This document shows, in pieces, positions 3,894 to 19,863 of a stretch of 64,000 bases of DNA (position 1 is its first letter; the number at the start of each line of letters is the position of its first letter). Position numbers and translations under genes: made by a program. Origin of the DNA: Stella humosa (GTDB lineage Bacteria; Pseudomonadota; Alphaproteobacteria; ATCC43930; Allostellaceae); assembly GCF_006738645.1 (NCBI RefSeq), contig NZ_AP019700.1, forward strand, positions 3,298,001 through 3,362,000. The letters run 5' to 3'. The notes under the pieces are model-generated. The model saw nothing but the letters and a program-made list of their open reading frames with translations. It was not told the DNA's origin and made no database searches.

Positions 3894-5654
3894 CTATACG
3901 AGCACCATCCCCTCGTCCGAGACCGACGATTCGCGGCGATCCTCCGGCCCGAGCAGCATCTCATTGTGGGCTGCCCCCGACGGGATCATCGGGAAGCAGT
4001 TCTCCTTCTGGTCGACGCACATGTCGAGGATGAAGGGTCGCGGCGTCTCGATCATCTCGATGATCGCGGCATCCACCTCATCGACCTGCGTGGCACGCCG
4101 GCCGACCGCGCCGAACGCGTCGGCCAGCTTCACGAAGTCCGGCAGCGAGTCCGAATAGCTCTCGGAGTAGCGGGCGCCATGCAGCAGCTCCTGCCACTGG
4201 CGGACCATGCCCATCCACTGGTTGTTGAGGATGAACACCTTCACCGGCAGGCGGTACTGCGCCAACGTCGACATCTCCTGGATGTTCATCAGGATCGAGG
4301 CCTCGCCGGCCACGTCGATCACCAGCGCGTCCGGGTGCGCGATCTGCACGCCCATCGCCGCCGGCAGGCCGTAGCCCATGGTGCCGAGCCCGCCTGAGGT
4401 CATCCACTGGTTCGGGCCCTCGAACTTCATGAACTGGGCCGCCCACATCTGGTGCTGGCCGACCTCTGTCGTGATGAAGGTCTTGCGGCTGCGCGTCAGG
4501 GCATAGAGCCGCTCCAGCGCGTATTGCGGCTTGATCACCCGGTCGGTCTTCTCGTAGCGGAAGCAGTCGCGCGCTCGCCACTCCTCGATCTGCTTCCACC
4601 ACGCCTTCAAGGCGGTGCGGTCGGGCTTGGCCTTGCGCCGCTTCCATTCGGCCAGGATCGCGGCCACCGTGCGCCCGGCATCGCCGATGATCGGCAGGTC
4701 GACGCGGACGTTCTTGTTGATCGACGAGGGGTCGATGTCGATGTGGATCTTGCGCGAGCCGGGCGAGAACTTCGTCAGATTGCCGGTCACCCGGTCGTCG
4801 AAGCGCGAGCCCACCGCCACCATGACGTCGCAGCCATGCATGACGAGGTTGGCCTCGTAGCTGCCGTGCATGCCGAGCATGCCCAGCGACTGCGGGTCCG
4901 ACGCCGGGAAGGCGCCCAGTCCCATCAGCGTCATGGTGCAGGGATAGCCCGTCGTCCGCACCAGCTCGGTCAGCGCCTTCGACGCTTCCGGGCCGGAATT
5001 GATGACGCCGCCGCCGACATAGAAGACCGGGCGCTTCGCCTGCTCCAGCATGTCGACGGCCGCTGCCACCGCCTTTGGGTCGGGATCGACCTGCGGGCGG
5101 TAGGTGCGATGGACGACCTGGTCGCGGGCGACATAGGTGCCGGCCGCGAACTGCACGTCCTTGGGCAGGTCGATGACGACCGGGCCGGGGCGGCCGCTGC
5201 GGGCGACGTGGAATGCCTCATGGATCGTCCGCGCCAGTTGGTTGACGTCCTTCACCAGGTAGTTGTGCTTGGTGCAGGGCCGGGTGATGCCGGTCGTGTC
5301 CGCTTCCTGGAACGCATCGTTGCCGATCAGGTGCGTCGGCACTTGGCCCGTGAAGCAGATGATGGGGATGGAATCCATCAGCGCGTCGGTCAGGCCGGTC
5401 ACCGCATTGGTGGCGCCGGGGCCGGACGTGACGAGGACGACGCCGACCTTGCCGGTCGAGCGGGCATAGCCCTCGGCCGCATGAACAGCCGCCTGCTCGT
5501 GCCGGACCAGGATGTGGCGGACGTGATTCTGCTTGAACAGCGCGTCGTAGATCGGAAGTACCGCGCCGCCGGGATATCCGAAGATTACGTCGACGCCCTG
5601 GTCAGCGAGCGCCTTCATGACGATTTCGGCTCCGTTCGGCTGCTGGTCCGTCAT
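3894..5654 (-). CDS. ilvB: Acetolactate synthase large (catalytic) subunit
   Basis: A 586-residue thiamine-diphosphate enzyme making acetolactate from two pyruvates, the committed step for valine, leucine and isoleucine. The ThDP-activating Glu is residue 53 in [14 protein letters not shown]. The PYR, middle and PP domains are all present, and the ThDP/Mg motif is the variant [15 protein letters not shown] with a downstream NN pair, the form usual in alphaproteobacteria. The ATG at 5654 has a GGGAG site; an in-frame ATG at 5705 would add 17 residues with no family match. It sits 86 bases downstream of miaA. No leader peptide or attenuator is evident. Confidence 0.97.
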
Positions 5655-5740
5655 CACTCCCGTCCTTCCGATCGAGGCACACGCCTCCGCATCCGACGGG
5701 TCCACCCCGCCGGGAAGGCGCGCAACCTAGTGCCGTCGGC

Positions 5741-6724
5741 CTAGCGGGTCAACCAAAAGCGACGAACAAATGAAAAGATTTCTGGCAGCAGCCTTTCCGA
5801 ATATTGCTCTCGCAGGATCCGGTTGACCGGCATGTCGCGCGGTGCCTGGTGGCGGAACCAGGTGAGCTGACGCTTGGCGTACTGCTCACTGGCACGAATG
5901 GCGGCCGCCGTGGCCACCTCCAGGGACGTCTGGCCGGCCACGTACCCGGCCAGTTCCGGCACGCCCACCGCCTTCATCGCCGGCAGGTCGGGCGACAGGC
6001 CCAGCGCCAGAAGCGCCTCGACCTCTGCCACCGCGCCCGCTGCCAGCATCGCCCGGAAGCGCGTGCCGATCGCGGGCTGGAGGGCCAGCCGCGGCGGCAT
6101 CACCAGCAGGGCCGCCACCCGCGGCGCGTCGGCCGGGGGCACGCTGGCGCGCTGCCAGTCCCCCAGCGGTCGTCCCGTCGCGGTCACGACCTCCCACGCG
6201 CGCACCAGGCGCTGGCTGTCGCCGGGCGCCAGCCGCTCGGCCGCCTCGGGGTCCAGGCCGGCCAGCCGGTCGTGGAATGCCGGGCCGCCGATCTCCAGAT
6301 GCAGCGCCCTGCCCTCGGCCCGCACCGCCTCTGGAATCTCCGGTACCGCCGCCAGCCCCTGGATCAGCGCGCGGAGATAGAGCCCGGTGCCGCCGACCAG
6401 GATCGGCCGGCCACCGGCCGCGGCGACGGCCTGGATCTCGGCCACCGCCATCTGGCGCCAACGCTCGGCCGACCCGGCCTCCGACGCCGGCAGCGCGCCA
6501 TAGAGCCGGTGCGGCACGCGGGCCTCGTCCTCGGCCGATGGTCGCGCCGTCAGGATGCGCAGCTCGCGATAGAGCTGCTGGCTGTCGGCATTGATGATCG
6601 TCCCGCCGAACCGCTCCGCCACGGCCAGCGCCAGGGCGGACTTGCCCCCGGCCGTCGGCCCGGCCACGACCAGGGCATCGATGGCCGGGCGCTGCGAACG
6701 CTGGCCGTTCTCGTCTTCGCTCAT
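5741..6724 (-). CDS. miaA: tRNA dimethylallyltransferase
   Basis: A 327-residue enzyme that adds a dimethylallyl group to N6 of A37 in tRNAs reading codons that begin with U. The P-loop GPTAGGKS is at residues 22-29, followed by the DSQQLYRELRILTARPS segment that contacts the tRNA, and the VGGTGLYLRALI motif. The C-terminal ASEQYAKRQLTWFRHQ is the conserved family tail. The length is normal. Its start lies 36 bases from the divergent serB start, and it is probably the first gene of the transcript running into ilvB. Confidence 0.96.
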   Translation of the reverse strand: MSEDENGQRSQRPAIDALVVAGPTAGGKSALALAVAERFGGTIINADSQQLYRELRILTARPSAEDEARVPHRLYGALPASEAGSAERWRQMAVAEIQAVAAAGGRPILVGGTGLYLRALIQGLAAVPEIPEAVRAEGRALHLEIGGPAFHDRLAGLDPEAAERLAPGDSQRLVRAWEVVTATGRPLGDWQRASVPPADAPRVAALLVMPPRLALQPAIGTRFRAMLAAGAVAEVEALLALGLSPDLPAMKAVGVPELAGYVAGQTSLEVATAAAIRASEQYAKRQLTWFRHQAPRDMPVNRILREQYSERLLPEIFSFVRRFWLTR

Positions 6725-6725
6725 G

Positions 6726-6755
6726 TTGCAGTGCGGCGGTGCCGCCCCCTATACA
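6726..6755 (+). promoter_or_regulatory. Predicted promoter giving a leaderless serB transcript
   Basis: TTGCAG (6726-6731) and TATACA (6750-6755) are spaced by 18 bases, a good sigma-70-type match in the 36-base gap between miaA and serB. The -10 box ends 5 bases before the serB ATG at 6761, so transcription should begin at or next to the start codon. No Shine-Dalgarno precedes this ATG. Confidence 0.55.
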
Positions 6756-6760
6756 GCGGC

Positions 6761-7660
6761 ATGACCCATGTGATTACGCTGGTCGCGGGCGCCGAGGAAG
6801 GTCCTCTGGCTGCCGGCGCGGTGTCTGCCGCCATGGCGGCCATCGCCGCCGCCGGTGGTGCCATCGGCCAGGCGGTATGGCTCGCGCCGGCCCGCGCCTG
6901 CGACCTGCCGTTCGCGGCCCCCCATCCCGAAGCCTGCCACGCCGCCGCCATGGCTGCCCTGGCCGGCACGGCGATCGACGTGCTGGCGGTGCCGATGGCC
7001 GGCCGGCGCAAGCGGCTGCTCGTCACCGACATGGAAGCGACCGTCATCGAGAATGAACTGCTCGACGACATGGCGGCGATGGTCGGGCTGGAGGTCGAGG
7101 TGGGTGCGGTCACCCGTCGCGCGATGGCAGGCGAGATCGACTTCGCCCAGGCGCTGCGCGACCGTGTGCGCCTGTTCGCGGGCCAGCCCCGGGCCTTGCT
7201 CGACCGCGCGGCAGCCGGCATCCGGCCGATGCCGGGCGCGGCCATCCTGGTCGCGACCATGCGTGGGGCCGGCGCTGCGACCGCGCTCGTATCGGGCGGG
7301 TTCCTGGTCTTCGTCGACCGGGTCGGCCGCCTGCTGGGTTTCCAGTCGGTCCATGGCAACGTGCTGGGGATGGATGGCGACCGGCTGTCTGGCGACATCC
7401 CGTCGCTGCCGGTCACAGCAGCCGGCAAGCGCGACGTGCTGCTGCGGCTGGCGGCGGAACAGGGGCTCGACCTGGAGGCCACAATGGCGATCGGCGACGG
7501 CGCCAACGACATCCCCATGCTGGCGGCAGCCGGGCTCGGCATCGGCTTCCACCCCAAGCCCGTGGTCGCCCGGGCCGTCGCCAATCGGATCGTCCATGGC
7601 GACCTCACGGCGGCCCTGTTTGCCCAGGGCTACCGCGCGGACGAACTGATCGGCGGCTGA
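6761..7660 (+). CDS. serB: Phosphoserine phosphatase
   Basis: A 299-residue HAD-superfamily enzyme for the last step of serine synthesis. An ACT-like N-terminal region of about 80 residues precedes the HAD core. Motif I is VTDMEATVIENE: Asp90 is the expected nucleophile, but the usual second Asp (DxD) is Glu92. Motif II Ser178 lies in LVSGGF, motif III is Lys223, and motif IV is GDGANDIPML with Asp246 and Asp250. Apart from Glu92 the catalytic set is complete. The start matches the family N-terminus and lies directly behind a predicted -10 box. It is convergent with degP. Confidence 0.93.
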   Translation: MTHVITLVAGAEEGPLAAGAVSAAMAAIAAAGGAIGQAVWLAPARACDLPFAAPHPEACHAAAMAALAGTAIDVLAVPMAGRRKRLLVTDMEATVIENELLDDMAAMVGLEVEVGAVTRRAMAGEIDFAQALRDRVRLFAGQPRALLDRAAAGIRPMPGAAILVATMRGAGAATALVSGGFLVFVDRVGRLLGFQSVHGNVLGMDGDRLSGDIPSLPVTAAGKRDVLLRLAAEQGLDLEATMAIGDGANDIPMLAAAGLGIGFHPKPVVARAVANRIVHGDLTAALFAQGYRADELIGG

Positions 7661-7667
7661 ACCGCCG
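7651..7667. terminator. Short hairpin at the serB stop codon
   Basis: CGGCGG (7651-7656) and CCGCCG (7662-7667) form a 6-bp G/C stem around a five-base loop containing the serB stop. It lies in the 32-base gap to the convergent degP gene, so it could end transcription from both sides. There is no T-tract. Confidence 0.4.
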
Positions 7668-7692
7668 CCGCCCAGCCGCGGCCCCGCCGGCC

Positions 7693-9222
7693 TCAGTTCC
7701 GGTCGATACGCAGGGCCACGAAACGCAGGTCGCCCTGGCGGTCGATCAGCAGCAGCAGCGACTTGCGGTTCGCCTTGCGCGCATCCTCGACCTTGGCGGC
7801 GACCTCGGCGGGGTTCTTCACCTCCTCCTGGCCGACCTCGAGAATCACGTCGCCGGCGCGTACGCCCTTCTCGGCCGCCGGGCTGTTGGCGGTGACGGCC
7901 GTGACCACGACGCCCGCGATCTCGTCGCCGATGCTGAACTTCTGCTTCAAGTCGGCCGACAGCGTCGACAAGGACAGGCCCAGCGCCTCGGCCGTGGCCG
8001 GCTTCTGCTCGCCGCCCTTCGGCACGGCCGCCACCTGCTCGGCCTCCTCGCGCTCGTCGAGTTCGCCCACCTTCACGTCGAACGCCATCTCGCGCCCCTT
8101 GCGCCAGACGACGACCTTGGCCCGCTTGTTGATCGGCGTCTCGGCGACTACGCGCGGCAGCCGGCGCATGTCGGTGATCTCGCGACCGTCGAAGGTCAGC
8201 ACGACGTCGCCGGCCAGGATGCCGCCTTCGGCCGCCGGGCCCTTGTCGTTGGTGCTGGCGACCAGCGCGCCGCGCGCCTTGCCCAGCCCCAGCGTCTCGG
8301 CGATCTCGTCGGTCACGCCCTGGATGCGCACGCCGAGCCAGCCGCGCCGGGTGCGGCCGAAATCCTTGATCTGCTGGATGACCGGACGGGCCAGGGCCGA
8401 AGGAATGGCGAAGCCGATGCCGATCGAGCCACCCGAGGGCGAGAAGATGGCCGTGTTCACGCCGATCACCTCGCCCGCCATGTTGAACAGCGGACCGCCC
8501 GAATTGCCGCGGTTGATAGAGGCGTCGGTCTGGATGAAGTCGTCATAGGGGCCGGAATTGATGTCGCGCTGGCGGGCGGACAGGATGCCGGCCGTGACGG
8601 AGCCCCCCAGGCCGAAGGGGTTGCCGATCGCCAGCACCCAGTCGCCGACGCGCGCGGCATCGGAATCGCCGAACTTCACGGCCGTCAGCGGCTTGGACGA
8701 CTTCACGCGCAGCAGGGCCAGGTCGGTCTTGGTATCGCGGCCGACCACCTCGGCCTTCAGGCTGGTGTCGTCCTGCAGGATGACGGTGATCTCGTCGGCG
8801 TCGGCAATGACGTGATTGTTGGTCACCACCAGGCCGGAGGCATCGATGATGAAGCCCGACCCCAGCGAGGTCGCCCGGCGCGGCGTCGAATCCGGGCGGT
8901 TGCGGTCGAAGAACTCGCGGAAGAAATCCTCGAACGGCGAGCCGGGCGGAAATTGCGGCACTTCCGGCAGGCGGCGCTGGGGCGTGGTGGCAGTGGCGCC
9001 GCCGCGGGCCTGCTGGGCGGTCGATACGTTGACGACCGACGGCAGCAGCTTGGCGGCCAGGTCGGCAAAGCTCTCCGGTGCGGCCCTGGCCGATGCGGCC
9101 GACGTCCAGGCCAGGACGGCCACCATCGTTGCCACGCAGGCCGAACCAACGCGGCCCAGGCCACGCTGGCGCGCCCCGCCGTTCCGTGCAGTGTCGTTCC
9201 GCGCCGCGCCGTCCCGTGTCAT
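7693..9222 (-). CDS. degP: Do/DegP-family periplasmic serine endopeptidase
   Basis: A HtrA-type protease and chaperone of the cell envelope, 509 residues from the chosen start. A signal peptide with hydrophobic core VATMVAVLAWTSAASARA ends near residue 48. The trypsin-like domain carries the triad His137 (TNNHVI), Asp167 (TKTDLAL) and Ser241 (RGNSGGPLF). Two PDZ domains follow, the first after RRGWLGVRIQGV and the second near KFSIGDEIAGVVV. The start is uncertain: the ATG at 9222 gives a 24-residue Arg-rich n-region, while ATGs at 9255, 9252 and 9276 are also in frame, and none has a strong Shine-Dalgarno. It is the last gene of the hflK-hflC-DUF2065-degP operon. Confidence 0.95.
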   Translation of the reverse strand: MTRDGAARNDTARNGGARQRGLGRVGSACVATMVAVLAWTSAASARAAPESFADLAAKLLPSVVNVSTAQQARGGATATTPQRRLPEVPQFPPGSPFEDFFREFFDRNRPDSTPRRATSLGSGFIIDASGLVVTNNHVIADADEITVILQDDTSLKAEVVGRDTKTDLALLRVKSSKPLTAVKFGDSDAARVGDWVLAIGNPFGLGGSVTAGILSARQRDINSGPYDDFIQTDASINRGNSGGPLFNMAGEVIGVNTAIFSPSGGSIGIGFAIPSALARPVIQQIKDFGRTRRGWLGVRIQGVTDEIAETLGLGKARGALVASTNDKGPAAEGGILAGDVVLTFDGREITDMRRLPRVVAETPINKRAKVVVWRKGREMAFDVKVGELDEREEAEQVAAVPKGGEQKPATAEALGLSLSTLSADLKQKFSIGDEIAGVVVTAVTANSPAAEKGVRAGDVILEVGQEEVKNPAEVAAKVEDARKANRKSLLLLIDRQGDLRFVALRIDRN

Positions 9223-12993: not shown

Positions 12994-14364
12994 TCAGATC
13001 GCCGTCTCGCCCATCCACCGCGCAATCGCGCAGGTGGCCTCGTCGCCATCAGGATAACCCATGATCTGGACGCCGAGCGGCATGCCGTCCAGCGCCAGCA
13101 GCGGCACCGTGAAGACCGGGGCGCCCAGCGTCGAGGACGGCACGTTGCAGATCGGGTTGCCCGTCGAGGCCAGCCCGATGGGAGCAACACCCGGGGCCGG
13201 CAGGCCGACGAAGCCCTCGATCGCCGGGCGCAGGGCCGCCAGGCGGCGGCGCATCTCGTTCCGGATCTCGACGGCGCGGCGATACTCCTCGATCGTGATC
13301 TTCTCCCAGCCCTCCAGCCGGTCGGCGATCGACTGGCTGAGCAGGCCCTCGCCCTTCTCGCGATAGGCCGCCAGCGGCCATTTAAGTTCCCACCCGATGA
13401 TCGTCATCGAGTTCTCCGAGCAGGGCAGCAGCGCTTCCTCCAACGCCGCCACGCCAGGATGGTCGGCGCGCGACAGCACGGTCACGCCGGCCGCGCGCAG
13501 GCGGTCGACATAGTCATCGAGCGCGGCCTGCGCGGCCGCGTCGGCGATCGCCCAGCCCGGACCGTCCAGCCGCGCCAGCACGCGCGGCCGCTGGGCCGGC
13601 GGCAGCATCGCGCCGGCGCCATAGATGCCGGGATACCCCGGATCGCCGCCCGCCAGGCGCGAGGTCTCGAAAGCGACCGCCCAGGCGTCGGCCAGCGAGC
13701 CCGCATGCAGGCCCAGATGGCTCTGGCTCAGGCTCGAATGGCCGCCGCCGCGGTTGAGCGCGCCGTAGGTCGGCTTGTAGCCCCAGTTGCCGCAATAGCT
13801 GGCCGGCCGGATGACCGAGCCCATGAGTTGGCTGCCGAAGGCGACCGGCACCATCCGCGCGCCCACCGCGGCGGCCGATCCCGACGAGGAGCCGCCCGGG
13901 GTGCGCGCCGGATCGAATGGGTTGGTGGTCGGCCCCGGGTGACTGAAGCCGAACTCGGTCGTCGTCGTCTTGCCGAGCACGACGACGCCCGCCTGCCGGC
14001 GCAGGGCATAGACGGACGCGGCGTCACGGTGGGATTCCCAGCCGGCATAGATCGGGCTACCCATGCCGGTCGGCATGTCCTCGGTCTCGTACAGGTCCTT
14101 CACGCCGAGCGGCATCCCGTCGAGCGGGCCGAGCGGCCGGCCGGCGGCATAGCGCACCGTTGCGGCGTCGGCGGCCCGGCGCGCGCCCTCGCGATTGATC
14201 ACGACGAACGCGCGGACCTCGGCCTCGCGCACGTCGTGGGTCTCCAGGCAGCGCTCGAGGTAGGCGCGCGGGCTATCCGATCCATCTCGGAAGCGCGCGA
14301 CCTGGTCCTGAAAGGTCAGCAGGGTCGTGCTGCGGGGATCGTAGGCGATGCCGCTGGCGTCCAT
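12994..14364 (-). CDS. Amidase signature family hydrolase
   Basis: A 456-residue Ser-cisSer-Lys amidase. The catalytic Lys is residue 89 (LGVKDLYE), the Gly/Ser-rich loop PGGSSSGSAAAVG spans 156-168, and the nucleophile Ser183 lies in QLMGSVIRPASYCG. Most family members have TGGS at that place, so the local GGS oxyanion turn is altered to MGS. The C-terminus PLGVQIMGYPDGDEA is typical. It could hydrolyse amides, ureido or hydrazide groups; the substrate is not predictable. It is transcribed away from the accessory block at 14530, sharing a 165-base intergenic region with it. A link to that block is possible but unproven. Confidence 0.9.
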   Translation of the reverse strand: MDASGIAYDPRSTTLLTFQDQVARFRDGSDSPRAYLERCLETHDVREAEVRAFVVINREGARRAADAATVRYAAGRPLGPLDGMPLGVKDLYETEDMPTGMGSPIYAGWESHRDAASVYALRRQAGVVVLGKTTTTEFGFSHPGPTTNPFDPARTPGGSSSGSAAAVGARMVPVAFGSQLMGSVIRPASYCGNWGYKPTYGALNRGGGHSSLSQSHLGLHAGSLADAWAVAFETSRLAGGDPGYPGIYGAGAMLPPAQRPRVLARLDGPGWAIADAAAQAALDDYVDRLRAAGVTVLSRADHPGVAALEEALLPCSENSMTIIGWELKWPLAAYREKGEGLLSQSIADRLEGWEKITIEEYRRAVEIRNEMRRRLAALRPAIEGFVGLPAPGVAPIGLASTGNPICNVPSSTLGAPVFTVPLLALDGMPLGVQIMGYPDGDEATCAIARWMGETAI

Positions 14365-14519
14365 GGGTCGGGGCCTCTCGCAGTTCTGGCACGGGGGATG
14401 GTCCCGAGCCTAGATTGGCGCCCGGCCCGATAGCAACCGCTTCCCCGTCCTTGCCGCCAGCCGGCCGCGACCGCTAGAACGGGATCGCCGCCCGCCAGTC
14501 CTTGGCGTCGGACGGCCCC

Positions 14520-14525
14520 AGGGAG
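14520..14525 (+). promoter_or_regulatory. Shine-Dalgarno for the repeat-peptide ORF
   Basis: AGGGAG at 14520-14525, with 4 bases to the ATG at 14530. It is the only recognisable ribosome binding site ahead of the three overlapping genes at 14530-19837 and decides the start of the first one. Confidence 0.6.
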
Positions 14526-14529
14526 CGCC

Positions 14530-14703
14530 ATGCCTGACGTGGGCACATCCACCGGCCGGCCATACCGGACGCCGCCATACCGGACGCCGCCATACCGGAT
14601 GCCGCCATACCGGATGCCGCCATACCGGATGCCGCCATACCGGACGCCGCCATACCGGATGCCGCCATCGCGCGGGCCGCACCCGGCTGCCCTCGACCGA
14701 TGA
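14530..14703 (+). CDS. 57-residue pentapeptide-repeat ORF, putative peptide substrate
   Basis: I recognise no family. After an 11-residue leader (MPDVGTSTGRP) come seven tandem units Tyr-Arg-(Thr/Met)-Pro-Pro at residues 12-46. The third residue runs Thr, Thr, Met, Met, Met, Thr, Met. The tail is SRGPHPAALDR. There is no signal peptide or membrane segment, no Cys or Lys, and the peptide is very basic and Pro-rich. Evidence that it is a gene: an AGGAG-like site 4 bases before the ATG, and a stop codon that overlaps the next ATG (ATGA, 14700-14703) in front of a ligase gene with no Shine-Dalgarno of its own. The other frames of the repeat lack a usable start. It could be a precursor or primer for the downstream enzymes, or a leader ORF for coupled translation. 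Confidence 0.55.
   Translation: MPDVGTSTGRPYRTPPYRTPPYRMPPYRMPPYRMPPYRTPPYRMPPSRGPHPAALDR
14561..14671. repeat. Seven-copy 15-bp tandem repeat
   Basis: The unit CATACCGGACGCCGC or its ATG variant CATACCGGATGCCGC is repeated about seven times with no other change. The only variable base is the C/T that turns a Thr codon (ACG) into Met (ATG) in the coding frame. The unit length is a multiple of three, so copy-number change would not break the frame of the 57-residue ORF. Confidence 0.9.
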
Positions 14704-16847
14704 CCCTGGCGCCGCCAACCCTGCGCATCATCCACGGCCGGCACTTCCCGGGCCCCAGCGTCTATTGCCTGAAGCCCGCCTATCTTGCGGCAGTCGAGAT
14801 GGGTCGCCACGGTTCGGAAGCGATCACCGCGCACGGCGAGCGATTCTTCACGCATCTGGCGGAAAGCCTGCCCGAATGCGCGTCGGCCATCGACGCCGCC
14901 CGCACGGTGCCGGCGGCAACCATTGAGAGCTTGGCGACCGCAGCGGTGCTGGAACTGCAGCGAAGCGTCGGCGCCGAGGTCGAATGGTCGGCCATCCACC
15001 GACATCCAGCCGGCCATCTCGAGTTGCTGGTCGCTTTCGAGGAGCCCCAGGTGGTCAGCGCAGCCATGCGCCTGGCCCTCGTCGCGATCGCGGCGGCACT
15101 GAATGACGAGGCCGGCCTGCCCCCGACCGGCAATGCGGCGCGATCGCGGCGTGCGTTCACCCACGCCGCCGAACACTTCCAGCTCGTCCACACCACCCGC
15201 TACCAGATCCGCGCGGCCGAGCGTCGCGGCATCCCGCACGCCCGGATGTTCGCGACCGCCCCGGTGGTCCTGCTGGGCCATGGCCGGCGCCAGCGCCGCA
15301 TCGTGGCGGCCTCGAACGAGCGCACCTCGAACATCGGCGAATCCATAGCCGGCGACAAACGCTACACCAGCCAGCTTCTGGCCAGCGTGGGCCTGCCGGT
15401 CCCCCGGCAGATGAGCGTCGGATCGGTGGCCGAGGCGTGCGCGGCGGCCGAAGCGATCGGCTTTCCTGTCGTGATGAAGGCGGCACGCGTCGACAAGGGC
15501 CGGGCCGTGATCCTTGACCTGCAAAGCGCGGAGGCCGTGGCCGACGCTTATCGGCGGCTCGAACGCTTCGGGCATCTCCTGGTCGAGAAGCATGTGGAAG
15601 GCGAGGATCACCGTCTGCTGGTCATCGGCGGGCGGATGGTGGCCGCGTCGCGGCGGCTGTCGGCGCGCGTCACCGGCGATGGCCGGCACAGCATCGGCGA
15701 GCTGATCGAGATCACCAACCGCGATCCCCGGCGCGGCGAGCGCGACTTCTATCGGCCGATGGTCCGCATCCGGGCGGACGAGGAAGTGACCGTTCAACTG
15801 GCCGAGCAGGGGCTGGATCTGGACGCAGTTCCGGTGGCCGGGCGCGTTGTCCGGTTGCGCGCCAACGCCAACCTGTCGACCGGTGGAACCGGCCAGGACG
15901 TGACCGGGATCGTCCATCCCGACGCCCGGCGTGCAGCCGAGGTGGCGGCGCGCGTGATCGGGCTCGACATCGCCGGCGTGGACCTGATGACGACCGATAT
16001 CTCTCGCTCGCCGGCCGAGACCGGGGCCGCGATCTGCGAAGTCAACCTCAGCCCCGGCCTGGGTCCCCACTTGACCGCCCCAGGCTCGCCCGACGTGCTG
16101 GCGGCGATGCTCGACCACCTGTTCCCTGACGGGGGCGAGGGCCGCATTCCGCTGGCCGCCATCACGGGCACGGGCGACCGCACCACCACGGCCCGCATGG
16201 CCGCCGCGATCATGGGCCAGGTGCATGGGGATGTCGGCGTGGCGACTGCATCCGGGGTGGAGATCGACGGGCAGCCGGTGGCGGCCGGCGACCGGACCGG
16301 CCCATCGGGGGCGCGCATGCTGCTGTGGGATCCGGTGATCGCCATGGCCATCCTCGAAGCGCCCCCTGCCGGCATCGCCGCCCGCGGCCTGCCGTTCGAC
16401 CGCTGCCATGTCGGCGCGATCATGGGTTCCGGCGGCGGGGCGCTGGCGCGGATGGATCTCCCGGCGCCGGACAGCCTGATCGTCCGGGTCGCGACCGAGC
16501 TGGCGGTGCTCGACGCCACCTGCCCGCAGGCAATGGCGCTGCGCCGGGCGACCCCCGCACGGCGGGCCTGTTTCATCACAAGCAATCCTGACAATCCCCT
16601 GGTCGGGCGCGATTGCCCGCCGGGCGACCTGGCCGCGACGGTAGCCGGCAACGGTGCCGGGGCCATGCTGGTCCTGCATGTGGAGCAGTGCGCCATTCCG
16701 CTCCTGCGGGTGGCCAGCCTGCCATCCGCCGGTGCCGGCAGCACCGACATCGAGTGCGCCCTGTTTGCCGCCGCCATTGCCTGGGGCCTGGGCGCCGGCC
16801 CCCGGGCCATCGCGGCCGGGCTGGCCGCATACGCCAGCGCGGCATGA
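14700..16847 (+). CDS. Cyanophycin-synthetase-like ligase with degenerate Mur domain
   Basis: A 715-residue CphA-like protein. The N-terminal CphA domain (about 1-160) is followed by an ATP-grasp domain (about 215-475) with well-kept motifs: IAGDKRYTSQLL, EKHVEGEDHRLLVI, ARVTGDGRHSIGELIE, RANANLSTGG and the metal-site CEVNLSPGL. The Mur-ligase-like part follows (about 480-715). Its P-loop reads TGTGDRTTT, with Arg where GKTTT has Lys; the ARGG segment reads EAPPAGI, and the DHLG segment is missing. True CphA is about 870 residues, so this half is short and probably not catalytic. In CphA the ATP-grasp domain adds Asp to the backbone and the Mur domain adds Arg. The start overlaps the repeat ORF stop by 4 bases and has no Shine-Dalgarno. 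Confidence 0.85.
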   Translation: MTLAPPTLRIIHGRHFPGPSVYCLKPAYLAAVEMGRHGSEAITAHGERFFTHLAESLPECASAIDAARTVPAATIESLATAAVLELQRSVGAEVEWSAIHRHPAGHLELLVAFEEPQVVSAAMRLALVAIAAALNDEAGLPPTGNAARSRRAFTHAAEHFQLVHTTRYQIRAAERRGIPHARMFATAPVVLLGHGRRQRRIVAASNERTSNIGESIAGDKRYTSQLLASVGLPVPRQMSVGSVAEACAAAEAIGFPVVMKAARVDKGRAVILDLQSAEAVADAYRRLERFGHLLVEKHVEGEDHRLLVIGGRMVAASRRLSARVTGDGRHSIGELIEITNRDPRRGERDFYRPMVRIRADEEVTVQLAEQGLDLDAVPVAGRVVRLRANANLSTGGTGQDVTGIVHPDARRAAEVAARVIGLDIAGVDLMTTDISRSPAETGAAICEVNLSPGLGPHLTAPGSPDVLAAMLDHLFPDGGEGRIPLAAITGTGDRTTTARMAAAIMGQVHGDVGVATASGVEIDGQPVAAGDRTGPSGARMLLWDPVIAMAILEAPPAGIAARGLPFDRCHVGAIMGSGGGALARMDLPAPDSLIVRVATELAVLDATCPQAMALRRATPARRACFITSNPDNPLVGRDCPPGDLAATVAGNGAGAMLVLHVEQCAIPLLRVASLPSAGAGSTDIECALFAAAIAWGLGAGPRAIAAGLAAYASAA

Positions 16848-19837
16848 CCGGCGCGGGAACCGGGCCGGCCGACCCTCGCCACGCATTCGCCGATCGGGCG
16901 CCGGCCAGGGTGACAACCGCCCTGGGGCCGGCCGGGCCACCGATGATGCTGCGGTTCGGCCGCGACCTCTCGAACGCGATCGAGGCCGACCACCGGATCT
17001 CCTGCATCCTGGTCGCCCGCGGCAGCCGGTCGCTTGCCCGCCTGGCGATCGGTGCGTTCCAGGCCCAGACTTGGCCGCATCGCGAACTGGTCATCGTCGA
17101 CGACGGCGACGAGGGGCTGGCGGGGCACATCGAGGACCTGGCCGACCGGCGGATCCATCTGGTCCGGCCCGGCCGCCGGGGCCGCCCGTCCGACGCATTG
17201 CTGGAACGGGGGATAGCGGAGGCGCTGGGACCCTTCATCTGCCGGTGGGACGAGGACTGCCTCCATGACCCGCTGCGCCTGGAGCTGCAGTTCCGGGCCC
17301 TGGCGATGCAGCGGGCCACGGCCTGCGTGCTGGCGCGGCGTGGCGAGTGGGAACCGGACAGCGATCGTCTGATGGTATCGGCGCCGCAGCCGCTGGACCC
17401 ATCGCTTCTCTGCCGCCGGTCGGCGATGGCGCCCGGCGGCGACGGGCCCGGCGGGGCGGCACGGGCGGCGGTCAGCCAGCATCGGGTCGTCCACCTGGAC
17501 CTGCCGCAGATGCTGCTGGCCATCGCCCCCGCAGGCCAGGATGCCAGGGCCGGTCGATCGGCGCTGACACCGGACGTCGCCGGCAGCATGCGGTGTCGGC
17601 TGCCACTTGCGGCGTTCGCCGCCGCGTTACGGGAACCGCTGCCGGCGCCGTCGGCCGCAAGCATCGAGGGGTCGGCGGCCACCGCAGTGCAAGCCATGCG
17701 CGAAGGGCGCTTCGAAGACGCCTTCGATAGCTGGAGCCTGGTGATCGGCCGCGACGGCGGCAGCCCCGCCGATCATGCCGGGCGCATCGCCGCCCAGTCG
17801 CGCTTCTGCCGCCCGCAAGCGACCCATGCAAGCTGGCGGGACCTGGCCGACCGTTTTCCGACCGCCCCCGAGGGTCCCTATGGCCTGGGCCGAAGCCATC
17901 TCGCCGCCGGCCGCGACGGCGCGGCCCGGCGGGCGTTCGAGATGGCGCTGGCGCGCGCCGCGGACCATCTGCCGAGCCGCATCGAACTTGCCATCCTGCG
18001 GGTCGATCAGGGCCAGGACCTCCAGGCGGAGGACGAACTGCTGCGACTGGCAGCGCTGGCACCGGCCGAGCCACGGATAGCCCGTGCCCTCGCGATCGCG
18101 GCGATGGGGCGGCTGGACTGGCCGCTGGCGTTGCAGCGCTGGCAGAAAGCGTGGGACGACTTCGGCGCACCGAGCGCGCCGCAGCGCATTGCCGTCTGCC
18201 TGGCCACGATGGGACGCACGGACGAAGCCTGGGCGGTCATCGAAGGCGTCCCCGGCGCAATCTGGGACAAGCCGACGCGCATCCGGATCAAGTGCCGGAT
18301 AGGCCGTCTGCTCCATGACTTCGGTGCCGTCCTGGCCGCGTTGGAGGCCGATCTCGAACTGGCGACAGCCGACGACGAACTGCGCGACATGCTGATCGAG
18401 GCATGGACCAATGCCCGGCGCGCCGACCAAGCAGCCGACCTGGCCGCCCGCTTCGGCATCGGCCGCGACCCGCGCCACCAGGAACGCGCGATCCAGGCGC
18501 TGATCGCGGCCGATCGCTCCGCCGAAGCCGACCGACATCTCCTGGCGCTCGCCACCCCAGCGGCCCTGCACCGAACATCGCCCAGGCTGCTGCGCCGAAT
18601 CCTGGCGGTACAGCGTCGGCACGAAGGCCCGACCGCAGCCCGGCGCGCGCTCGATGCCATCGTGTCGAGCGACGACGTGACGCGGACGATGCGCCTGTCC
18701 GCACTCTTCGAAGGCGAATTCGAGGAAAGCCGGGCCGCGCTGGAGGAAGGGAGGCCGTTGCCGCCCGCACTGAGCAGGGACAGCGCCACATTCGCCTCGG
18801 CATCGGCATGGCGGGCGGAGATCCCGCGAAGCTGGCCCGGCGACCCGCTGCGGCGGGCGTGGGATGCGTTGCGCATCGTGCGGCACCGAAGCGCCGGCTG
18901 CCTGCTCGACGTATCGACCAATCTTGCACAGGCCATGACGGTGGCCGACCGGATCGCCCGGGCGATTGCCACGGGCCAGCCGCTGTCGGTCGTCCGGCTG
19001 GGCGATGGCGAAGGCAATTTCCTGCCCTATGCGGACGGGGAGGAGCCACAGCGCCGGCTGGACCAGGCCAATATCCAGCAGCTCTGGTGGGGCCGCCACA
19101 GGCTGGGCGAGGACGATCTCGGGGCGATCGAGCAGGCGCTGGCCGCGGCGGTGCGGGTGGCCGACATCGTCGGCATCCCCGACGAGTACCGCCTGGCGCT
19201 CGCATTGGGCCGGCCGGAGGCGGCGAGCGGCGAAGCCAGGGGCCTGCTCGCCGTCGTCGAGCAGTTCGCTGGATACGCGCCGGCACCGACCGGGGGCGCG
19301 CTGTTCGGGCCGAGGCAGATCATCACCGGCTCCAACTTCAACAACGCCTTGGCGGCGTGGGGGCTATGGGAACCGCTCCTCGGCCGCATCGGCGCATGCG
19401 CCGTCGTCACCGGGCGGCCGGACCTGGCGGCCGCGCTGACCACCCGCTTCGGGCTGCGCGTCGAACGGACCTTCGCCGTGCCGCCGGAGGCCAAGTATCT
19501 GCCGCCGAGCACGCCCGGCCAACACCACTACCGCGATGTGTACGCCCGCACGCTGGAGGCCCTGGCCACCGTCCGCCCCGGGCAGGTGGTCCTCGTGGCC
19601 GCCGGCATCCTCGGCAAGATCTACTGCGCCCGCATCCGGGAAGCCGGCGGCATCGCCATAGATGTCGGCAGCGTCGCCGACGGGTGGTGCGGCCACGTCA
19701 CCCGCCGGATCGACGAATCCGCCACTTATGGCTGGACCGAGGACCTGGCCGCTGCCTTTGCCCGTCGCCCCGATCTCGACGCCGCCTTCCCCGCCCTCCG
19801 CCCCGCCACCGGATACCAGCCGGCCCGCCGGACCTGA
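16844..19837 (+). CDS. GT2 - TPR - GT-D multidomain glycosyltransferase
   Basis: A 997-residue protein with three parts. Residues about 51-150 resemble a family-2 glycosyltransferase: RISCILVARG, VIVDDGDEG near 80-88, and an acidic FICRWDEDCLHDP near 130 in the place of the DxD motif. Residues about 225-600 are helical, Ala/Arg/Leu-rich and TPR-like. Residues about 700-990 look like a GT-D fold (DUF1792-type) domain, with SVVRLGDGEGNFLPY near 715 and VLVAAGILGKIYCARI followed by AIDVGSVADGW. No membrane segment or signal peptide is seen, so it should be cytoplasmic. The start overlaps the ligase stop (ATGA, 16844-16847) with no Shine-Dalgarno, so translation is coupled. Sugar and acceptor are unknown. 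Confidence 0.8.
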   Translation: MTGAGTGPADPRHAFADRAPARVTTALGPAGPPMMLRFGRDLSNAIEADHRISCILVARGSRSLARLAIGAFQAQTWPHRELVIVDDGDEGLAGHIEDLADRRIHLVRPGRRGRPSDALLERGIAEALGPFICRWDEDCLHDPLRLELQFRALAMQRATACVLARRGEWEPDSDRLMVSAPQPLDPSLLCRRSAMAPGGDGPGGAARAAVSQHRVVHLDLPQMLLAIAPAGQDARAGRSALTPDVAGSMRCRLPLAAFAAALREPLPAPSAASIEGSAATAVQAMREGRFEDAFDSWSLVIGRDGGSPADHAGRIAAQSRFCRPQATHASWRDLADRFPTAPEGPYGLGRSHLAAGRDGAARRAFEMALARAADHLPSRIELAILRVDQGQDLQAEDELLRLAALAPAEPRIARALAIAAMGRLDWPLALQRWQKAWDDFGAPSAPQRIAVCLATMGRTDEAWAVIEGVPGAIWDKPTRIRIKCRIGRLLHDFGAVLAALEADLELATADDELRDMLIEAWTNARRADQAADLAARFGIGRDPRHQERAIQALIAADRSAEADRHLLALATPAALHRTSPRLLRRILAVQRRHEGPTAARRALDAIVSSDDVTRTMRLSALFEGEFEESRAALEEGRPLPPALSRDSATFASASAWRAEIPRSWPGDPLRRAWDALRIVRHRSAGCLLDVSTNLAQAMTVADRIARAIATGQPLSVVRLGDGEGNFLPYADGEEPQRRLDQANIQQLWWGRHRLGEDDLGAIEQALAAAVRVADIVGIPDEYRLALALGRPEAASGEARGLLAVVEQFAGYAPAPTGGALFGPRQIITGSNFNNALAAWGLWEPLLGRIGACAVVTGRPDLAAALTTRFGLRVERTFAVPPEAKYLPPSTPGQHHYRDVYARTLEALATVRPGQVVLVAAGILGKIYCARIREAGGIAIDVGSVADGWCGHVTRRIDESATYGWTEDLAAAFARRPDLDAAFPALRPATGYQPARRT

Positions 19838-19863
19838 TCGGCCGAATGGGGAAAGCGCGGGAT

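Follow-up and report, generated by a model that had tools for sequence, protein, structure and literature searches.

The window analysed here is 64,000 nucleotides of DNA from Stella humosa ATCC 43930, which is now named Allostella humosa and has a genome of 5,832,650 bp in a single contig (PMC6687932). On the plus strand, an ORF of 57 aa that encodes PPYR[T/M] units (14530 to 14703) is followed by a gene for a CphA-like ligase of 715 aa (14700 to 16847) and a gene for a multi-domain glycosyltransferase of 997 aa (16844 to 19837). The short ORF contains a 15-bp tandem repeat (14559 to 14668) of 7.3 copies. The three ORFs are connected by two ATGA overlaps, as described in an earlier note on this DNA; these are at 14700 to 14703 (ORF1/ORF2) and 16844 to 16847 (ORF2/ORF3). 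The sequence AGGGAG resides 4 nt 5' of the first ATG. All three ORFs, the repeat and both overlaps were verified in the window. The start of ORF3 is uncertain, and a simple gene caller prefers position 16943.

The assignment of the second gene product as CphA-like is borne out by its matches to cyanophycin synthetase models, although these fall under the curated cut-offs. The ligase matches PRK14016 with an E-value of 6.6e-161 (537 bits; cut-off 877 bits) and TIGR02068 with an E-value of 2.5e-142 (476 bits), which does not reach the CphA1 cut-off of 850 bits. Coverage of the models stops near position 716 of 871. When the ligase was compared with plasmid sequences, the best hits were genes annotated as cphA, at about 32-44% identity. 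The protein consists of an N domain, an ATP-grasp (G) domain (15180 to 16133) and a Mur core (16134 to 16838), and it has no Mur lid. In the Mur core, the P-loop GTNGKTT has become GTGDRTT (16167 to 16187), in which the equivalent of Lys499 is gone, and the LNVxxDH stretch is lost. A further change lies in the G domain, where the equivalent of Arg458, a residue that matters in TeCphA1 (PMC9427784), is Gly (codon 16062 to 16064). The position of TeCphA1 His267, whose role in the ATP-grasp P-loop has been described (PMC9427784), is occupied by Lys in the window ligase, in its counterpart from Stella sp. ATCC 35155 and in a copy on contig C448 of a metagenome-assembled genome, G002; it is His in genome G057. 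These two substitutions may mean that the G domain is altered too. An AlphaFold2 model of the ligase, built from a 3-sequence alignment, had a mean pLDDT of 38.6 and was too poor to use.

Domain matches likewise agree with the proposal that the product of ORF3 is a multi-domain glycosyltransferase. It carries a GT2 domain (PF00535; 16976 to 17623), a TPR-like region and a GT-D-like domain (PF22882; 18881 to 19798). In the GT2 domain, the GED motif has become GGD and the YVxHxxNT stretch is gone. The GT-D domain matches PF22882 at 50.7 bits against a cut-off of 27, and retains RLGDGEGNFLPY. Its DGE motif (19004 to 19012), which is presumably catalytic, is conserved in all six aligned proteins, the window copy included. 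The earlier note had combined a peptide ligase with two glycosyltransferase-type domains. An intact pair of a two-activity ligase and a two-activity transferase is not supported for S. humosa, where both the Mur portion of the ligase and the GT2 domain are without their catalytic motifs.

Four members of the genus were compared: S. humosa, Stella sp. ATCC 35155 (G001), G002, which is of the same genus as S. humosa, and S. vacuolata (G003). In ATCC 35155, the syntenic locus has the same amidase gene, a CphA-like ligase gene and, 35 bp further on, a transferase gene. This ligase has 895 aa with complete Mur_ligase_M and Mur_ligase_C domains, and the transferase has 1241 aa in the order GT32-type (Gly_transf_sug)-GT2-TPR-GT-D. 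The window ligase ends at the equivalent of about residue 742 of 895, before the Mur lid, and continuous alignment of the window transferase starts only at about residue 237 of 1241. Compared with ATCC 35155, ~1.3 kb that includes the Mur lid and the N-terminal GT32 domain is missing across the S. humosa gene boundary. The Mur P-loop Lys and the Mur lid, which belong to side-chain arginine addition, are present in ATCC 35155 and absent from the window ligase. The second ATGA overlap, which the earlier note took as the mark of a translational unit, appears instead to be the scar of the missing sequence (16841 to 16895): the ATCC 35155 genes do not overlap and have ~1.3 kb more across the junction.

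The ligase and transferase genes are adjacent in three genomes of the genus, one of them in a different genomic context. In G002, where the ligase gene is cut by the contig end, a CphA C-terminal part of at least 371 aa adjoins a transferase of 1258 aa, and the pair resides next to an HSP90 gene, unlike the amidase context elsewhere. Because the two genes are adjacent also in ATCC 35155 and, in this different context, in G002, the link between them is real within the genus. Relatives of the transferase were collected at 51 loci in GTDB genomes, with flanks of 8 kb where the contig allows. A CphA relative is present in the fetched flanks at just two of these loci, both from the Stella genus, and none was found there outside the genus. 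Conversely, CphA-like genes without the transferase exist on contig C448 of G002, in G043 and in G057. The pairing is not obligatory, because transferases without CphA (in Azospirillum) and CphA-like genes without the transferase exist. Neighbourhood analysis therefore sustains one part of the original proposal, the linkage of the pair in three genomes of the genus, and not the other: each gene is also found alone and without a peptide ORF, which is the finding that the earlier note had named as fatal to its scheme.

To compare the domains, sites at which all other sequences agree were scored as changed or unchanged in the window copy, with ATCC 35155 as control; the counts derive from few sequences. 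In the Mur core, 21 of 57 such sites are changed in the window against 3 of 39 in ATCC 35155 (Fisher p 0.0015), and in GT2 the counts are 41 of 89 and 8 of 56 (p 7e-5). The G domain (6 of 76 against 7 of 77; p 1.0) and the GT-D domain (7 of 83 against 5 of 81; p 0.77) show no such difference. Relative-rate counts with four outgroups give the same picture, in that the window copy is faster in the Mur core and GT2, but not in G or GT-D, and the TPR region is intermediate. None of the small indels that only the window copy has shifts the reading frame. The rapid change of the Mur core and GT2, the constraint on G and GT-D, and the in-frame indels together would fit selective loss of two activities and not wholesale decay.

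These observations make it likely that S. humosa carries a reduced version of an accessory pair of Stella/Allostella genes, which encode a CphA1-like ligase and a GT32-GT2-TPR-GT-D transferase. A deletion of the missing ~1.3 kb in S. humosa or its ancestor would have removed the Mur lid along with the GT32 domain and produced the ATGA junction; that sequence was lost in S. humosa and not gained in the others is judged from few genomes. The S. humosa ligase would be left with a single ATP-dependent ligation site, a domain arrangement like that of CphA2, and the S. humosa transferase with one sugar-transfer site, that of GT-D. The intact relatives would have a ligase that makes a peptide with an aspartate backbone and side chains, and a transferase that makes a glycan; the two may or may not act on one molecule.

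The intact Stella ligases resemble CphA1 (TIGR02068) in their domains and domain order (N, ATP-grasp, Mur), and they keep the Mur P-loop and equivalents of TeCphA1 Arg309, Arg323, Asn394, Ser396 and Arg458 (PMC9427784). They differ from CphA1 in having Lys for His267, scores below the cut-off, no cyanophycinase and a glycosyltransferase neighbour, and the window ligase differs further in that it is without the Mur P-loop Lys, the Mur lid and Arg458. CphA2, which has been described as cyanobacterial (PMC10206079), is without both P-loop-M and the Mur lid and has one ligase site left (PMC9427784). The window ligase has the same layout, with P-loop-M and the Mur lid lost and the ATP-grasp domain kept. 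However, in a ranking of PDB entries its sequence is nearer to CphA1 structures (394-287 bits) than to the short entries 8fxh (174 bits) and 7ta5 (156 bits), which we take to be CphA2 structures. Because the protein is CphA2-like by layout but nearer CphA1 by sequence, it is not classed as CphA2; it would work, if at all, like CphA2.

A precedent for the transferase is dGT1 of Streptococcus parasanguinis, which contains GT-D (DUF1792) and GT-A in one protein and glycosylates a serine-rich-repeat adhesin (PMC5063993). The Stella transferases also join GT-D and a GT-A-type domain in one protein. Unlike dGT1, the intact Stella enzymes add GT32 and TPR, and no serine-rich-repeat protein partner was seen adjacent to them. 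The suggestive but unsupported reading as a new peptide pathway gives way to a testable one, in which a polymer synthetase with two sites and a glycosyltransferase with several were reduced one domain at a time; a single small genus offers intact versions, a reduced version and an empty site. The novel elements are a one-site, CphA2-like layout outside cyanobacteria and a recurrent pairing of ligase and glycosyltransferase.

The empty site is found in S. vacuolata, the closest relative, whose amidase is 95% identical to that of S. humosa (86% for the more distant ATCC 35155). The sequence corresponding to window positions ~14470 to 19859 is missing there as one clean block, and the amidase and aminotransferase starts are 178 bp apart. 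The more distant ATCC 35155 carries the pair next to this amidase, which makes a loss in S. vacuolata the simpler account. The pair is dispensable, since S. vacuolata is cleanly without it. Both S. humosa genes might be plain pseudogenes that decay without function and are heading for the same loss. The large missing segment, the lost motifs, the replacement of Arg458 by Gly in the G domain and the clean absence in the closest relative are all consistent with this. However, more than 1,700 codons remain open, no small private indel breaks the frame, and the ATP-grasp and GT-D domains evolve at no higher rate than those of intact relatives; we regard decay of this kind as possible but unlikely.

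It is also possible that the pair was replaced by a divergent copy, instead of plain descent with a deletion, because the S. humosa and ATCC 35155 copies share only 51% identity in the ligase and 44% in the transferase, against mostly 81-91% in the flanking genes. One short flanking ORF is 62% identical.

A more ambitious form of the reduced-pair interpretation holds that the CphA1-like peptide of Stella is glycosylated by the partner transferase and that S. humosa, independently of cyanobacteria, evolved a one-site version with a CphA2-like ligase and GT-D. If true, this would be an undescribed pair that makes a glycosylated cyanophycin-like polymer, and we consider it doubtful. Similarly, there is little likelihood that the locus is an ordinary CphA1 storage locus. 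Cyanophycin synthetase is the best-matching family, and most Asp-recognition residues are kept in the intact relatives. However, the scores of the ATCC 35155 ligase (695 bits) and the C448 copy of G002 (671 bits) against TIGR02068 are below the 850-bit cut-off, compared with 1046 bits for the G057 CphA. Lys replaces His267 in every genus member that covers that position, and the window copy is without the P-loop-M Lys and the Mur lid. Cyanophycinase (TIGR02069) was not found in the four genus members, whereas G057 carries it beside its CphA; this absence is weak evidence, because a recognisable cyanophycinase is present in just 658 of 1,614 genomes with CphA1 (PMC10206079).

The earlier note had proposed the repetitive peptide as the substrate of the two enzymes. 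The 15-bp array is the strongest tandem array in the window (TRF score 199), and, because its unit has no stop codons, most frames should contain an ORF that runs across the repeat. Indeed, five of the six frames are open throughout 14530-14700, and the sixth has one stop, 5' of the repeat. The PPYR frame has a codon-model score of -13.4, and no 57-codon window of five local genes scores as low (minimum -6.6, median 13.6), although a low score is weaker evidence for repetitive than for ordinary sequence. The inner repeat units differ at one base only, which alternates between Thr and Met codons; thus, there is no synonymous pattern that would mark selection at the protein level. A search of five genomes (S. 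humosa, the other three of the genus and one member of the order) found the repeat only at this locus. In ATCC 35155, the gap between amidase and ligase is 131 bp and holds no such repeat ORF. The RNA fold of the repeat region is ordinary (z 0.38), no Rfam family matches the region, and no promoters or terminators were found at 14300-14800. Because of the low codon score, the uniqueness of the repeat to this genome and the lack of a counterpart in ATCC 35155, the repeat ORF is most likely a non-coding minisatellite and no precursor peptide; at best it might be translated as a short, unconserved leader. The conserved precursor peptide gene that a RiPP-like peptide-tailoring cluster requires was not found at the S. 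humosa locus, and a search of a limited set of literature for a combined system of ATP-grasp/CphA ligase, precursor peptide and glycosyltransferase returned nothing relevant. A new peptide-tailoring system, in which the ligase extends the PPYR peptide and the transferase glycosylates it, is thus very improbable: its good start signal, its place directly 5' of the ligase with an ATGA overlap, the linkage of ligase and transferase in the genus and the precedent of a bifunctional GT-D/GT-A enzyme that glycosylates a repeat protein (dGT1/Fap1, PMC5063993) are opposed by the codon and repeat evidence above and by the fact that the copy beside the repeat is the reduced one, not a fully equipped one.

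Transferases with a comparable architecture are present in Azospirillum (L064, L065 and L070). These share the GT32-GT2-TPR-GT-D core with the Stella enzymes at about 34-46% identity, but are longer (1733-1840 aa), and L064 has extra GT4 and Anp1 domains. None of the three has a CphA relative in the fetched flanks. Two of them adjoin RTX/Big_5 proteins; these are the giant transferases of 1831-1840 aa in A. picis (L064, 8022-16064) and A. soli (L070, 7998-15976), and their position beside secreted-type RTX and Big_5 proteins suggests a role in glycosylation of surface proteins.

Full-length CphA-like proteins with Lys for His267 are encoded by G043 (L044, 8981-11617) and by contig C448 of G002 (L043, 7628-10303). 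Their scores fall short of the CphA1 cut-off, narrowly or by a wide margin, and proteins of this type possibly form a separate CphA1-like subfamily.

Outside the window, S. humosa and ATCC 35155 each encode some ten or more additional CphA-like proteins, most of them 600-750 aa long, whose genes are often arranged in head-to-tail groups of two to four. Their ATP-grasp part is kept, and the Mur P-loop and lid are absent. Such genes are present at L031 (8077-11822), L034 (8650-11857), L037 (8406-12054), L032, L033, L035 and L036, and similarly at L039-L042. Their neighbours encode transporter parts, a TPP enzyme, a molybdopterin oxidoreductase and sensor kinases. Beside the CphA-like genes of L034 is a frame of 1238 aa (4895-8611) in which Pfam recognises only a family 5 solute-binding domain (residues 779-1139); its N-terminal ~770 aa have no assignment and may be a gene-calling error. 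These further CphA-like proteins are possibly of greater interest than the ligase-transferase pair itself.
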